From NCBI RefSeq assembly GCF_004104015.1, contig NZ_RYFV01000003.1, forward strand, positions 1 through 41,026: 41,026 nucleotides of DNA, in the 5' to 3' direction. The notes beneath the pieces are model-generated. The model saw nothing but the letters and a program-made list of their open reading frames with translations, was not told the origin of the DNA and did no database searches. The stretch comes from Actinomyces oricola (GTDB taxonomy: Bacteria > Actinomycetota > Actinomycetes > Actinomycetales > Actinomycetaceae). A program made the position numbers and the translations under genes. Shown here piece after piece: positions 16,465-40,991 of this stretch (the first letter of the stretch is position 1; each line of letters starts with the position of its first letter).

Positions 16465-18210
16465 TCACATTGATGAGGACCGGGCGGCGGGCAGGCTGAG
16501 AATCGTACGCAAATCGGTCTTGATGGCCTCGAGCCGGTCGGCGGCCGTACGGCGGGCCAGCTCCACCGGATCGGCCCCCACCGGGACAATGACTTCGCAA
16601 TAGCATTTGAGCTTGGGCTCGGTGCCCGAGGGGCGCACCACCACCCGGTCATTAGCCGCTGTTGTCCACACCAGGCCATCGGTGGCCGGAAGCGTACCGC
16701 CATTGCCGTCCGAGGCGCCGTCGAGCAGGTCAAGGGTCTTGACCACCGGGGATCCGGCCAGGTGGGTCGGAGCGCTGCCGGAGCGCAGGCGCTCCATGGT
16801 CTTGGTAATGAGGGACAGGTCGTCCACGCGCATGCTTACGGGGCTGGTGGCGTGCAGGCCGTGTGTGCGGGCCAGGCGGTCCATGAGCTCCAAGACGCTA
16901 CGACCCTGCTGCTTGAGCACGCTGGCCAGCACCGCCATGCGCACAGCCGCCGAGATTCCGTCCTTGTCGCGCACCATGGCCGGGTCCACGCAGTAGCCCA
17001 GGGCTTCCTCATAGCCGAAGACCAGGTCCGGTACTCGCGAGATCCACTTAAAACCAGTCAAGGTGCGCCGGTACTCCAGGCCGTGGGACTGGGCGATACG
17101 GCGCAGCAGGCGGGAGGAGACAATCGAGTTCGCCAGGACGCCGGTGCCAGTGAAGGCGGCCAGCTCGGCAGCCTGCTCGCCCAGCAGGGCCCCTACCTGG
17201 TCGCCGGTGAGCTGAAGCCAACCGCCGACCGCGTGCGGGTCGGGAATGGCTACCGCGCAGCGATCGGCGTCAGGGTCGTTGGCAATAACTAGATCGGCGT
17301 CGACCTGACGGGCCAGGGCGAAGGACAGGTCCAGCGCGCCGGGCTCCTCAGGGTTGGGGAAGGCCACCGTGGGAAAGTCCGGGTCAGGCTCGAACTGCTC
17401 GGGGACCACCACAATGTCCTCGAAACCGGCACGCGTCAGTGCTTCGCGGCACATGGGCCCACCCACACCGTGCATGGCGGTCAGCACGATTCGCAGCGGG
17501 GCGGCAGCACCCATGCGCGCGGACAGTGCAGCCCTCTCCAAATACTCCTCACGGATCGCGTTGCCCAGGATCTGCCATCCCGAGTCGGCCATGGGTACGC
17601 TCGCCAGAGGGCCGACAGCGGCAATGGCGTGGGCAATGGCGGCGTCGAAGGGGGGCACGATCTGGGCGCCCTGACCCGAGTCGGTCACGGCCCGCCCGCC
17701 GAGGTACACCTTGTAACCGTTGTCCTGCGGAGGGTTGTGGGAGGCGGTCACCATGACGCCGGCGTCGGCGTCCAGCCGGCGCAGGGCGAAGGCGAGCACC
17801 GGGGTGGGGCAGTGCTTCTCAAAAAGGAGAGCCTGCCCGCCGGCCCCGGTGACAACGGCGGCGGTGTCGCGGGCGAACTGCTCGGAGTTGTGGCGGGCGT
17901 CGTAGCCGATGACGACGGTGAATCCTCTGCCCAGGGTCTGGCGCAGGTAGGAGGACAACCCGGCGGCTGCACGGATGACGACGGCGCGGTTCATGCGGTT
18001 GGGACCGCCCCCCAGGCGCCCACGCAGCCCCGCGGTGCCGAAGGTGAGGGTGCCATTAAAGGCGTCGGTCAGGGCCGCTGTAGCAGAGGCGTCGCCCTTG
18101 TCGTGGCGGGCCATGAGCCCACTGAGCTCAGTACGCGTTGCGGGGTCCGGATCCTCGGCGATCCAGGCAGTCACGGCAGCAATGTCGAGATCGGAGGAGG
18201 TGGGGGTCAT
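16465..18210 (-). CDS. Phosphohexomutase (phosphoglucomutase/phosphomannomutase)
   Basis: Interconverts hexose-1- and hexose-6-phosphates. The 581-residue length is that of PgcA-type enzymes. The catalytic serine loop TASHNPP lies near residue 157, the Mg loop DPDADRCAV near 310, the sugar-binding GYEEALGY follows, and the phosphate-binding RPSGTEPKLKCY is at the C-terminus. Whether glucose or mannose is preferred cannot be read from sequence. I use ATG 18210 because the family begins here and TACCGT lies 7 nt upstream; a start at 18282 would add 24 unconserved residues. It is divergent from dapE. Confidence 0.93.
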   Translation of the reverse strand: MTPTSSDLDIAAVTAWIAEDPDPATRTELSGLMARHDKGDASATAALTDAFNGTLTFGTAGLRGRLGGGPNRMNRAVVIRAAAGLSSYLRQTLGRGFTVVIGYDARHNSEQFARDTAAVVTGAGGQALLFEKHCPTPVLAFALRRLDADAGVMVTASHNPPQDNGYKVYLGGRAVTDSGQGAQIVPPFDAAIAHAIAAVGPLASVPMADSGWQILGNAIREEYLERAALSARMGAAAPLRIVLTAMHGVGGPMCREALTRAGFEDIVVVPEQFEPDPDFPTVAFPNPEEPGALDLSFALARQVDADLVIANDPDADRCAVAIPDPHAVGGWLQLTGDQVGALLGEQAAELAAFTGTGVLANSIVSSRLLRRIAQSHGLEYRRTLTGFKWISRVPDLVFGYEEALGYCVDPAMVRDKDGISAAVRMAVLASVLKQQGRSVLELMDRLARTHGLHATSPVSMRVDDLSLITKTMERLRSGSAPTHLAGSPVVKTLDLLDGASDGNGGTLPATDGLVWTTAANDRVVVRPSGTEPKLKCYCEVIVPVGADPVELARRTAADRLEAIKTDLRTILSLPAARSSSM

Positions 18211-18223
18211 GGCCGTGACGGTA
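18211..18223 (-). promoter_or_regulatory. -10 element TACCGT of a leaderless promoter (phosphohexomutase)
   Basis: On the minus strand TACCGT (18223-18218) ends 7 nt before ATG 18210. The nearest purine-rich GGAAGG is too far upstream to serve as a Shine-Dalgarno. Confidence 0.45.
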
Positions 18224-18377
18224 CCTTCCGAACGCCTATGGTGACCTGAAGAGTGATGACACTCATGGGTGGCACTCGACACAGGTGTGTTGCGGTGAGC
18301 ATGGCTGGAAAGCCCATCGAGGCGCCCCTGGTTCGCGGTCCCGCCAGCGAGGCCGCCGGTCTCGGCCAGGCGCCGCC

Positions 18378-18389
18378 TACCCTGGGCCC
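18378..18389 (+). promoter_or_regulatory. -10 element TACCCT of a leaderless promoter (dapE)
   Basis: TACCCT at 18378-18383 ends 6 nt before ATG 18390, with no Shine-Dalgarno sequence. Confidence 0.5.
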
Positions 18390-19568
18390 ATGAGCGAGCC
18401 CACCACGCCGGTTTTGCCCGACCTCAGCGGCGACGTCGTCGACCTGGCCCTGGCCCTGGTCTCCATCCCCTCGGTCTCCGGCGCCGAGGCCCCCCTGGCC
18501 GACGCCGTCCAGAAGGCACTCGCCGCCCACCCCCACCTGGAGGTTCTGCGCCACGGCAACACGGTGGTCGCCCGCACCAATCTGAACCGCCCTGAACGGG
18601 TTGTCGTGGCCGGGCACCTTGACACCGTTCCAGTGTCTCCGCGCACCAATAACCTTCCCGGCCGCATCCAGGAGCGCAACGGCGAACGGGTTCTGTGGGG
18701 GCGCGGCAGCGTCGACATGAAAAGCGGGGTCGCCGTCGGCCTCCACCTGGCCGCCACCCTGAGCGCTCCACGGCGCGACGTCACCTGGGTGTTCTACGAC
18801 AACGAAGAGGTCACCAGCGACCTCAACGGGCTGGGCCGAACGCTTAAATCCCACCCCCAGTGGCTAGCGGCCGACGCCGCCATCCTCGGTGAGCCCACCG
18901 GCGGAGCCATTGAGGGCGGCTGCAACGGCACCTTGCGCCTGATCCTCACCGTCCACGGCACCGCCACCCATTCGGCCCGCGCCTGGCGGGGCGTCAACGC
19001 CGTCCACGCCGCTGCGCCCCTCATTGAGCGCGTCGACACTGCCCCGATGCGTGACGTGGAGGTCGAGGGCCTCGTGTTCCGCGAGAGCTTCTCCGTGGTC
19101 GCCATCGAGGCGGGCATCGCCACCAACACTGTGCCCGACCGCTGCAAGCTAACCGTTAACTACCGCTTCGCCCCGGACCTGAGTGCCGAGCAGGCCCTGG
19201 ATCGCGCTCTGCGGATCCTGGCCGGGCAGGGGGCCAGGGTCGGGGCCACCGCGGCGGTTGGGGAGGCTCCGCCCGTGATCGCGGCCGGTGCCGGCACGGT
19301 CGACGTCCATATCGACGACCTGTGCGAGGCGGCCCGCCCCGGCCTGGACTCGCCTCTGGCCGTTGAACTCCTTGCGGCGGTGCGCACCCGTGGGGGAGGA
19401 GTGGGTCCGAAATACGGCTGGACCGATGTCGCCCGTTTCTCTGCCGTGGGCATCCCCGCGGTCAACCTGGGCCCTGGCGACCCCATGCTCTGCCACACCG
19501 ATGACGAGCACTGCCCAGTGGCCCAGATCCAGGCCGTCACCGAGATTCTGCGCGAATGGTTGACGTGA
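18390..19568 (+). CDS. dapE: Succinyl-diaminopimelate desuccinylase
   Basis: Removes succinate from N-succinyl-L,L-diaminopimelate in lysine and cell-wall precursor synthesis. This is a 392-residue M20 metallohydrolase. Metal ligands and catalytic residues are in order: His76 (AGHLDTVP), Asp109 (GSVDMKSG), Glu139/Glu140 (YDNEEV), GEPTGG near 168, and His369 (LCHTDDEHC). The insert dimerisation domain begins at NGTLRLILTVHGTATHSARAW. The start is ATG 18390 with TACCCT 6 nt upstream. Other M20 peptidases are possible, but GRGSVDMKSG with NEEV is the actinobacterial DapE pattern. Confidence 0.9.
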   Translation: MSEPTTPVLPDLSGDVVDLALALVSIPSVSGAEAPLADAVQKALAAHPHLEVLRHGNTVVARTNLNRPERVVVAGHLDTVPVSPRTNNLPGRIQERNGERVLWGRGSVDMKSGVAVGLHLAATLSAPRRDVTWVFYDNEEVTSDLNGLGRTLKSHPQWLAADAAILGEPTGGAIEGGCNGTLRLILTVHGTATHSARAWRGVNAVHAAAPLIERVDTAPMRDVEVEGLVFRESFSVVAIEAGIATNTVPDRCKLTVNYRFAPDLSAEQALDRALRILAGQGARVGATAAVGEAPPVIAAGAGTVDVHIDDLCEAARPGLDSPLAVELLAAVRTRGGGVGPKYGWTDVARFSAVGIPAVNLGPGDPMLCHTDDEHCPVAQIQAVTEILREWLT

Positions 19569-19585
19569 GACGGCGCACCAATGGC

Positions 19586-19674
19586 GTCGACCCCGCGCGG
19601 GCGGGGTAGGCACCGCCCGCTACCCGGACGCCCGGGTCACCTACGGGTCGACCCCGCGCGGGCGGGGGAGGCAC
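19586..19674. CRISPR. Two-repeat type I-E-like CRISPR remnant
   Basis: Two 28-nt repeats lie at 19586-19613 and 19647-19674, exactly 61 bp apart and enclosing a 33-nt spacer (19614-19646). They differ at one base: T against G in the tail. Each begins GTCGA, contains the stem CCCCGC/GCGGGG around a GCGG loop, and ends AGGCAC. Repeat length, stem and period match type I-E arrays. No cas genes and no obvious AT-rich leader are present. The array starts 17 nt after the dapE stop. A REP-like palindrome pair is the main alternative. Confidence 0.6.
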
Positions 19675-19786
19675 GGTCTTTGCCCGGCCTGGAGCGACCG
19701 CCGCCTCGGCGTGACTCTCACCGCACTCAGGCGCCATGGCTGTTTGTTCTGGCGCGCGAGTGCTGCCGAACCCGCATGATGTGCCC

Positions 19787-20560
19787 ATGAATCCACGTGA
19801 GTCCTACCGCAGGGGGCCGGTGCTGCTGCGCGGCACCCAGATCCCCGAGCAGACCACGGACGCCCGGCTCCTGACCCATGACGGCGCCGAATGGCTCCAC
19901 GCCGACCCCTGGCGGGTACTGCGCATCCAGGCCGAGTTCGTCGAGGGCTTCGGCGCCCTGGCCGAACTCGGCCCCGCCATTAGCGTCTTCGGCTCGGCCC
20001 GCACCCGGCGTGAGGACCCCGCCTACGCCCTGGCCGAGCAGGTCGGTGCCGGACTGGCGCGCTCGGGCTACGCCGTCATTACCGGTGGCGGGCCCGGAAT
20101 GATGGAGGCCGCCAATAAGGGGGCTCACCAGGCCGGGGGCGTGTCGGTAGGCCTGGGCATTGAGTTGCCGCACGAGCAGGGCATGAACGAGTTCGTCGAC
20201 CTGGGAGTGCATTTCCGTTACTTCTTCGCCCGCAAGACCATGTTTTTGAAGTACTCCGACGGCTTCGTGGTTATGCCGGGAGGCTTCGGCACCCTTGACG
20301 AGCTCTTTGAAGCGCTCACCTTGGTCCAGACCCACAAGGTGTCCAGCTTCCCAGTGGTGCTCGTCGGGCAGGACTTCTGGGGCGGCCTGGCCGGCTGGAT
20401 CCGTGCAACCATGATCGAGACCGGAACCATCTCACCCGAGGATGCCGGCCTCTTCTACGTCACCGACACTGTTCAGGAGGCTCTGGACTACGTCGTCTCG
20501 GGCGCCAAGAAGATGCGTGCGGACGAGGCCGCCCTGGCCGCCAGGGCCGTCAACCGCTGA
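19787..20560 (+). CDS. LOG-family protein (TIGR00730)
   Basis: A 257-residue member of the lysine-decarboxylase-like/LOG family. Characterised members are cytokinin-riboside 5'-monophosphate phosphoribohydrolases that hydrolyse nucleoside monophosphates. The nucleotide-binding GGGPGMMEAANKGA (about residues 102-115) and the catalytic PGGFGTLDE (about 163-171) are intact. ATG 19787 is preferred to the in-frame ATG 19736 because conservation begins near it. A CATGAT hexamer lies 6 nt upstream, a weaker form of the leaderless pattern seen elsewhere here. A hairpin follows the stop. Confidence 0.88.
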   Translation: MNPRESYRRGPVLLRGTQIPEQTTDARLLTHDGAEWLHADPWRVLRIQAEFVEGFGALAELGPAISVFGSARTRREDPAYALAEQVGAGLARSGYAVITGGGPGMMEAANKGAHQAGGVSVGLGIELPHEQGMNEFVDLGVHFRYFFARKTMFLKYSDGFVVMPGGFGTLDELFEALTLVQTHKVSSFPVVLVGQDFWGGLAGWIRATMIETGTISPEDAGLFYVTDTVQEALDYVVSGAKKMRADEAALAARAVNR

Positions 20561-39290: not shown

Positions 39291-40703
39291 GGGTGCGTCT
39301 CTTAGTGTGGTGGTAATTTCTGTGGGGTCTTGGTCGGTGGGGAGTGCTGGGTGGGCATTGTGGGGATCCGAGTTCTTCGACCAAGATTCACAAGGAGTGT
39401 TCCCACGATGCCCAGGAACCAGTCTGCCGTGTCAGCTCTGATCGGGGAAGTCCTCGCCGATCCTGATCTGGTCCACGATGACGTCTTTAGGCGCATGCTG
39501 CAGGCCGGGCTGCAGGACCTGATCGATGCCGAGGCGGCCGCGGTCATCGGCGCTGAGCGCTACGAGCGCACTAGCGGGCGTATCACCAGGCGCAACGGCA
39601 AGCGCGCCAAGACGGTGGCCGCCACTGCCGGCGAGGTCGAGCTGGCCATCCCCAAGCTCCGCCAGGGGTCGTTTTTCCCCAGCCTGCTCAACCCGCGCAG
39701 GAGGGTCGGTCCTGTACGCCGTGATCTGCTCGGCGTGGATTGAGGGAGTCTCCACCCGCAAGGTCGATGAGCTGGTGCGGGCCCTGGGGTGCGAGTCGGG
39801 GATCTCGCGCTCGAGCGTGTCGCGCATCTGCCAGGACATCGACCAGGGTGTGGGCCAATTCCTGTCCCGGCCCCTGGACCACTCCTGGTTCCCCTACCTG
39901 TTCGTGGACGCCACCTACCTCGATGTGCGCATGGGCCACCGGGTGGTCTGCCAGGCCCTGGTAGTGGCCACCGGCGTGTCAGCCCTGGGCCGGCGCGAGA
40001 TCCTGGGCATGGCCATCGGGGACGCCGAGACCACCGACTTTTGGACCGAGTTCCTGCGGTCTTTGCGCCAGCGGGGTCTGAGGGTCGCCAGCACCACCGA
40101 TCCCCTGGGCGTGGCACTGGTGACCAGCGATGCCCACGCGGGCCTCAAGGCCGCGATCAAGGCTATCGGGCCCGGGGCGGCCTGGCAGCGCTGCCGGGTC
40201 CACTTCGCCCGCAACGTCACTCAGCACCTGGGCTCGGCTCACTCCAAGCCCGTCAATGCGCTGATCTCTACCATCTTCGCCCAGACCAGCCACGAAGCCG
40301 TCACCGCCCAGTACAAGCAGGTCATCGACTCCCTGCAGCCCTCGCTGCCAGCCATCGCCCAGATGCTTTAAGACGCCCAGCCAGACCTGACCGCCTTCGC
40401 CGCCATGCCCCGCGAGCACTGGCCCAAGATCTGGTCCAACAACCCGATCGAGCGCCTGGGCCGAGAGATCAAGCGCCGCGCCGACGTCGTCCAGATCTTC
40501 CCCAACCGCGACAGCGTCACCCGCCTGATCGGCTCCGTCCTCCAGGAGCAGCACGAGGAATGGCAGTACGGCGAGCGCCGCTACCTCTCCCAGACCTCAC
40601 TCCAGCGACTGACCCACACCCTGACCCACACCACCCCCGACAACCACCCCCTGATGACCATCACCACCTAACACAAAAAACACCACACCAAAAGACTTGA
40701 CCC
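39291..40703 (+). mobile_element. IS256-family insertion sequence, inactivated
   Basis: About 1.41 kb with imperfect terminal inverted repeats. The left end GGGTGCGTCTCTTAGTGTGG (from 39291) matches the reverse complement of the right end (GGGT, GTCTTTTGGTGTGGTG, reading inward from 40703), with one indel and few mismatches. Flanks share TCCTGA (39285-39290 and 40705-40710), a candidate degraded target duplication of the 8-9 bp expected for IS256. It contains a single transposase pseudogene. Confidence 0.8.
39408..40671 (+). pseudogene. IS256-family transposase, frameshifted and with an internal stop
   Basis: A mutator-type DDE transposase in two frames. ATG 39408 opens MPRNQSAVSALIGEVLADPDL and reads to NPRRR near 39700. 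The match then continues one base later (SVLYAVICSAWIEGVSTRKVDELV), which fits a one-G insertion in the run near 39706. Catalytic residues are present: Asp in FVDATYLDVR, Asp in VTSDAHAGLKAAI, and Glu in NNPIERLGREIKRR. TAA at 40369-40371 interrupts the frame where relatives have a Glu codon (MLEDAQ-type), and the same frame continues to TAA 40671. Two independent lesions make it non-functional unless supplied in trans. Confidence 0.88.
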
Positions 40704-40834: not shown

Positions 40835-40939
40835 ATGCGCACCATGTGCGTTCTGCGCGGAGCACCCGGCTCGGGTAAGACCACCCAGAGCCGTCAGCAC
40901 GGCTTGGCCGACGGATCATTCCCGCGCGAGCGGGGATGA
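40835..40939 (+). pseudogene. Truncated P-loop kinase-like gene (N-terminus only)
   Basis: ATG 40835 follows a strong GGGGAGG about 7 nt upstream. The protein starts MRTMCVLRGAPGSGKTTQS, a Walker A P-loop typical of polynucleotide-kinase/zeta-type ATPases (LRGAPGSGKST..., then GL). After about 27 residues (HGLAD) the sequence runs into a CRISPR-repeat-like segment and stops at TGA 40937-40939. The strong ribosome site and intact P-loop suggest a real gene whose body is missing. Either the contig is chimeric at this point or the gene is broken in the genome. Confidence 0.55.
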
Positions 40940-40991
40940 CCCGATGTATCGGGTGGGTACCACGTCGACCCTGCGGGAGCAGGGATAGCAG
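40915..40991. repeat. Two type I-E CRISPR-repeat-like units at the window end
   Basis: Unit 1 (40915-40942) contains CCCGC/GCGGG around GCGA, followed by GATGACCC. Unit 2 (40964-40991) starts GTCGA like the repeats at 19586, with the stem CCCTGC/GCAGGG around GGGA. The C-to-T and G-to-A changes are compensatory, so the stem is kept. The starts are 49 bp apart, shorter than the 61 bp of the 19.6-kb pair, so this is not a regular array as assembled. Confidence 0.4.

Follow-up and report, generated by a model that had tools for sequence, protein, structure and literature searches.

A Repeat–Spacer–Repeat Unit between dapE and a LOG Gene of Actinomyces oricola as a Likely Scar of Off-Target Type I-E Spacer Integration

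A Two-Repeat Unit Lies between dapE and a LOG Gene

The window analyzed here, a stretch of 41,026 bp from Actinomyces oricola, is the entire contig C23 of a 2.93-Mb assembly in 78 contigs (the source assembly). Two genes, both on the + strand and separated by an intergenic gap of 218 bp, flank a pair of direct repeats, and a second, I-E-like pair of units lies at the end of the contig. The features are as follows.

18285..19568, + strand: dapE-like M20 peptidase gene, upstream neighbor (longest frame; the true start is possibly further in)
19586..19613, + strand: 28-bp direct repeat, copy 1, which folds as a hairpin; presumably one of the two copies of an integration target
19614..19646, + strand: 33-bp spacer-like insert between the repeats
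19647..19674, + strand: 28-bp direct repeat, copy 2, one base unlike copy 1
19787..20560, + strand: LOG-type gene (Pfam Possible lysine decarboxylase), downstream neighbor
40915..40942 and 40964..40991, + strand: I-E-like unit pair at the contig end, matching the genus I-E repeat at 23/28 and 20/28 positions

The two repeat copies, GTCGACCCCGCGCGGGCGGGGTAGGCAC (19586-19613) and GTCGACCCCGCGCGGGCGGGGGAGGCAC (19647-19674), are identical at 27 of 28 positions, start 61 bp apart and enclose a 33-bp insert, which confirms the description in an earlier note on this DNA of two repeats that differ at one base around a 33-nt spacer. The note also described a stem, and folding of a single repeat yields a hairpin of -19.2 kcal/mol (z -3.43), a value equaled by none of 200 shuffled sequences. 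The LOG protein has its nearest named relatives in A. massiliensis (82%), A. israelii (77%), and A. oris and A. dentalis (76%). A Pfam scan of 28 ORFs of the window, the larger ones, detected no Cas family, in agreement with the claim that no cas genes are nearby, and an Rfam search of 19300-20000 gave no match up to E 1. A REP-type dispersed palindrome was considered and rejected. With up to three mismatches allowed, the 28-mer has only its two window copies in the 2.93-Mb assembly; the repeat is therefore not a REP-like family, the alternative that the earlier note had wanted checked by a genome search.

Comparison of the intergenic region, suggested earlier for sister strains, was run here in genus relatives. 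dapE and the LOG gene are adjacent in 9 of 29 relatives, and none of these nine gaps holds such a repeat pair or an array. The gaps, of 52-151 bp, are unalignable with the window gap, and no alignable empty (unduplicated) site was found among the relatives compared.

The Window Repeat Resembles the Type I-E Repeat of the Genus

Type I-E arrays of Actinomyces relatives carry the repeat GTCGACCCCGCGCGAGCGGGGATGATCC or close variants of it with a period of 61 bp, and the label "type I-E-like" applied earlier is apt, since their repeat is related to that of the window and the period is the same. The array of one relative, G005, adjoins type I-E cas3, cse1, cse2, cas7, cas5, cas6, and cas1, and strong Cas1e matches are present in 29 of 49 genus genomes. 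The window repeat agrees with the genus repeat at 22 of 28 positions, 20/21 over the first 21 and 2/7 over the last 7, and is one of six 28-mers that score at least 22 against it in 1.17 Mb (both strands). Like the genus arrays (G005, G019, and others), the window pair has a 28-bp hairpin repeat, a 33-bp spacer and a 61-bp period, and it shares nearly all of the initial repeat bases. In contrast to those arrays, it has two copies only and a different 3′ end, neither a leader nor cas genes are seen alongside, and the repeats of its sister sites (described below) are unrelated.

The genome search for cse1 and cas1 proposed earlier turned up other Cas1 genes. Type I-E Cas1 is absent from the source assembly, where the sole match (E 7e-4) is a type I-G Cas1; the Cas5d family gave no match, and neither did the Cse1 family, in a search that also missed its E. 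coli control. Present are a type I-G system on contig C22 (repeat 36 nt, period 69-74) and a reverse transcriptase-Cas1 fusion of 684 aa (PF00078 + PF01867) on the 4-kb contig C44 (L005 1401-3730), which is accompanied there by cas2. Type I-E cas genes were thus found neither at the locus nor in the genome, with the proviso on the Cse1 search. Among the three origins that the earlier note had offered, an off-site array served in trans by a type I-E system is unlikely in a genome with no I-E Cas1 and, in the search that missed E. coli Cse1, no Cse1 match.

The chief rival explanation for the window site is a decayed I-E array end: a true type I-E array would have lost its cas genes and all units but this one pair, and the last seven repeat bases would have drifted. 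The match at 20 of the 21 initial bases and the correct period are in line with this, as are the occurrence of I-E systems in genus-mates when the source genome has none, the 3′ degeneration of terminal repeats in real arrays (G019), and the unusually high I-E likeness of the window repeat. However, the aberrant last six bases, AGGCAC, are common to both copies, a pattern not expected from terminal-repeat drift, and the dapE–LOG gap is free of arrays in the 9 of 29 relatives that have both genes adjacent. A decayed array also leaves unexplained the unrelated repeats and the copied host DNA of the other sites described below. The decayed-locus relic put forward in the earlier note therefore keeps some probability for the window site, where we judge it unlikely, and does not account for the class of sites.

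Repeat Pairs 61 bp Apart Recur in the Source Genome

A first search of the source genome, for I-E-like hairpins paired at a distance of 61 bp, returned the window pair, pairs on C76 and C21, and a weaker pair on C45, and the repeat sequences of these differ. A distance spectrum was computed in addition, in which all 28-mer pairs at distances of 30-200 are compared and no sequence model is used. The scan covers 1,173,017 bp, 40% of the source genome, and consists partly of contigs with earlier matches. The main count comprises pairs of at least 25/28 identity at distances not divisible by three, and its background comprises the 110 such distances left when 60-62 and 121-122 are set aside, with the sequence of the I-G array and of the C22 poly-G end also excluded. 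Eight such pairs lie at 61 and one at 62, against a total of five over the 110 background distances; for eight pairs at 61 and a mean of 0.045 the Poisson P is 4e-16. Three of the nine sites (the window, C76:8623, and C21:32616) were known beforehand, and the remaining five at 61 give P 1.6e-9. In the initial 437-kb sample, 61 was the only distance between 35 and 130 not divisible by three that had pairs of at least 23/28. Two sites fall below the main count, C45:101847 (22/28) and C22:110632 (24/28, distance 62), the second of which has a donor (see next section).

The nine sites carry nine distinct repeats, as expected of target-site duplications. Two sites contain three repeats (spacings 60 and 61), and at one of them, C76:56311, both inserts are identical. 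When 25 pairs from three genomes were compared with the I-E repeat, the mean best similarity was 15.2, versus 13.4 (sd 1.4) for random GC-rich 28-mers. The window repeat is itself a GC-rich intergenic hairpin, which would also suit a common tandem hairpin, such as a terminator that slippage had duplicated, the 61 bp then being a matter of chance. Against this stand the excess at 61 bp over 110 other distances and, for the class, the finding that inserts elsewhere are exact copies of remote DNA, by which slippage is contradicted; its probability is close to nil.

Of three further genomes of the genus that were sampled, G017 has the peak as well. In 0.4 Mb of G017, in which Cas1e is present, 13 pairs of at least 23/28 lie at 61 versus a mean of 0.28 at other distances. 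The same amount of sequence gave one pair at 61, which is not significant, in G020, a genome without Cas1e, and zero pairs in G032, where Cas1e is present. Across the four genomes sampled there is no link between scars and present-day Cas1e. The comparison shows that the 61-bp peak is not due to the base composition of the genus, and that present Cas1e is no predictor of it either. Across 134 kb from 37 LOG loci of genus members, no pair at 61 was found; the source-genome rate would give about one. As a control, 72 loci were scanned (264,659 bp, most of them from other genera). Matches numbered one or two at almost all short distances, with a single one each at 61 and 62. This control is without a peak but resembles low-complexity sequence, and hence is little informative. 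Other peaks were observed at 40 and 44 bp in G017 (L157-L176) and at 46 bp in G020 (L177-L196). Each of these corresponds to one repeated sequence at several places, unlike the 61-bp sites.

Several Inserts Are Copies of Host DNA

The 34-nt insert at C22:69578 is identical, at 34/34 positions, to C76:44849-44882, inside a methionine synthase (metE) gene. A joined query of 25 further inserts, run against the whole genomes G000, G017, and G020, gave four full-length donor matches (C22:110632, 33/34; G017 285893, 496641, and 273310, 33/33 each) and one partial match (G017 452676, 30/33). Full-length donors in the same genome, at 33/34 or better, thus exist for 5 of the 26 inserts searched; the other 21 have none. 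Identity between donor and insert stops at the insert edges, continuing for 0-1 base beyond the left and 0-3 beyond the right. Only 0.44% and 0.62% of the 33-mers in the samples recur exactly elsewhere, and against this background five donors among 26 inserts have a P of 1e-7 to 5e-7, or of 4e-5 if the whole-genome rate is 1.5%. A consistent PAM is absent at the five donors, of which one shows AA/G, one GA/A, and three neither (the slash marks the donor edge). The AA/G edge resembles the E. coli AAG motif, and for the I-E system of Streptomyces avermitilis 5′-AAN-3′ is reported in a passage of a review (PMC12231136).

The insert of the window pair has no other copy, at up to three mismatches, in the source genome or in 48 genus-mates. 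A phage or plasmid origin was rejected: the spacer search that had been recommended gave only matches of E 0.3 or worse to phages and plasmids, and the 24-nt core of the insert has no exact match in IMG/VR. No donor was found for the window insert; 5 of the 26 inserts searched, at sister sites, have one.

The three-repeat site at C76:8562-8714 (L068 about 1440-1560) has its own repeat and two inserts. One of these, the insert at C76:8623, consists of an entire genus I-E repeat and five further bases, reversed in orientation, as though the spacer had been taken from a CRISPR array. It holds the only exact copy of the genus I-E repeat found in the source genome.

The Units at the Contig End Differ from the Window Pair

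The earlier note had pointed to units of similar architecture at the end of the window as a hint of more arrays. These units do exist and are I-E-like, but they lie 49 bp apart, not 61. Similar pairs adjoin cas3 in two genus-mates, G021 (L072 1452 and 1501, 49 bp) and G009 (L085 1501 and 1562, 61 bp). The window-end pair is probably an element different from the window repeat pair, like the cas3-side pairs of genus-mates, and because these adjoin cas3 it may have been left by a lost I-E system, as what remains of a mini-array linked to cas3. A Mutator-family transposase gene at 39526-40668, interrupted by a stop codon near 40369, adjoins the units, and a frame that starts like a P-loop ATPase (MRTMCVLRGAPGSGKTTQSRQ; 40835-40936, translation inspected by eye) enters the first unit and then stops. 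In the I-E array of G005, the spacer CCCCGCGGTAGCGGGGATGGCCCGGTGTATTAG (L049 about 18206-18266) resembles the window-end unit GCGGGGATGACCCGATGTAT, as if it had been acquired from such an element.

These cas3-side pairs are relevant to another explanation of the window pair, a regulatory mini-CRISPR (a CreA antitoxin or a self-regulating guide) in which two ectopic repeats are used by Cascade. CreTA has the same anatomy, a single spacer between two repeats away from an array (PMC9458426, PMC8501985), and I-E-like unit pairs do adjoin cas3 in G021 and G009. However, the source genome has no match to I-E Cas1, Cse1, or the Cas5 family (the search covered Cas5d, Cse1, and Cas1e, and for Cse1 it failed to recover the E. 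coli control), so that a cognate effector was not found, and the 28 window ORFs scanned include zero cas genes. The window copies are also nearly identical, unlike the degenerate repeats of CreTA in the account of PMC9458426. We consider a regulatory unit of this kind very improbable.

Ectopic Type I-E Integration as the Probable Explanation

We consider it likely that the window pair is an ectopic (off-target) spacer-integration scar, one of many and now orphan. In the proposed mechanism, a type I-E Cas1-Cas2 would have joined a 33-bp fragment across a repeat-like 28-bp hairpin in the dapE–LOG gap, and gap filling would have duplicated the 28 bp, leaving repeat-33-repeat, a one-spacer neo-CRISPR. 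The same reaction would have occurred at other hairpin-like sites in the source genome and in G017, and pieces of the host chromosome would at times have been the DNA inserted. The observed dimensions are those of off-target I-E integration, with a 28-bp duplication around 33 (32-34) bp and a hairpin target that resembles the native repeat at 22/28 positions, and the sum of 28 and 33 is both the period of the genus I-E arrays and that of the E. coli I-E integration product. According to a passage in PMC10011333, the protospacer of E. coli type I-E is 33 bp, and the incoming DNA supplies the final base of what is nominally a 29-bp repeat. A single integration therefore brings in 33 bp and copies 28 bp of the target, which is the window geometry.

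Because neither a donor nor an alignable empty site was found for the window pair, its origin rests on this geometry and on the sister sites. We infer that the enzyme was I-E Cas1-Cas2, that integration preceded the loss of the I-E genes, and that the window pair arose like the sister sites. The source assembly contains no I-E Cas1, and a past event needs none today. With the I-E genes absent from the assembly, the scar is probably inert and should not give rise to a crRNA. A single ectopic Cas1-Cas2 integration is accordingly the best fit of the three options in the earlier note, but it was not a lone event, as there are nine such pairs in 40% of the genome.

The scars could instead be real but the work of another integrase, the type I-G Cas1, the RT-Cas1, or an unknown one. 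The genes for the first two are present in the source genome and I-E Cas1 is absent. However, the I-G array, whose repeat is 36 nt long, has a period of 69-74 versus 61/62 for the scars, and the repeat, period, and hairpin of type I-E suit the scars better; we regard another integrase as quite unlikely.

For the genus, ectopic type I-E integration would have a wider consequence, toward which we lean somewhat: in part of the genus, the adaptation enzyme of type I-E may have acted as a natural genome-wide insertional mutagen. It would have placed 33-bp pieces, partly from the host chromosome, into hairpins at dozens of sites per genome, where they would have seeded neo-CRISPR units and altered intergenic DNA, and its scars would outlive the system. 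Extrapolation from the samples gives about 20 scars in the source genome and perhaps a hundred in G017. Most of what is known of off-target spacer integration comes from Cas1-Cas2 overexpression. A genus with many scars would show the natural fidelity of CRISPR adaptation and the sites that are attacked, as well as how frequently self DNA is captured and whether new arrays arise in this way. The distance spectrum, with its count of 28-mer pairs 61 bp apart, is a simple test for any genome.

Comparison with Known Systems

Noncanonical integration by Cas1-Cas2, in which spacer-length DNA enters repeat-like chromosomal sites and the target is duplicated, was reportedly described by Nivala, Shipman and Church (2018, Nat Microbiol 3:310), who are said to have found no more than several putative cases in nature, in Yersinia pestis and in Sulfolobus islandicus. 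The Actinomyces scars share with that off-target integration the spacer-length DNA, the repeat-like chromosomal sites outside arrays, and the duplicated target, and differ from it in being numerous and in lying in natural genomes. No report of dispersed scars of this type in Actinomyces was found in the open-licence literature, among the matches listed.

Other precedents bear on parts of the pattern. Overexpression of Cas1-Cas2 leads to integrations into nonarray regions, as stated in a passage of PMC11788318 that cites Nivala et al. 2018, and for Sulfolobus a passage of PMC9456107 proposes an accessory factor that keeps a stem-loop-binding Cas1 from nonarray integration. CreTA and other ectopic-repeat mini-CRISPRs (PMC9458426, PMC8501985) also consist of two repeats and a single spacer away from an array; the window pair differs in its nearly identical repeats, in its position away from a cas locus, and in a genome where no I-E effector was found. 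Ectopic acquisition in CRISPR3 of Streptococcus thermophilus (PMC7999890) is likewise a Cas1-Cas2 integration away from the normal first repeat, but that event is inside the array, whereas the window pair is outside any array. The phenomenon in Actinomyces is new in scale, not in kind.
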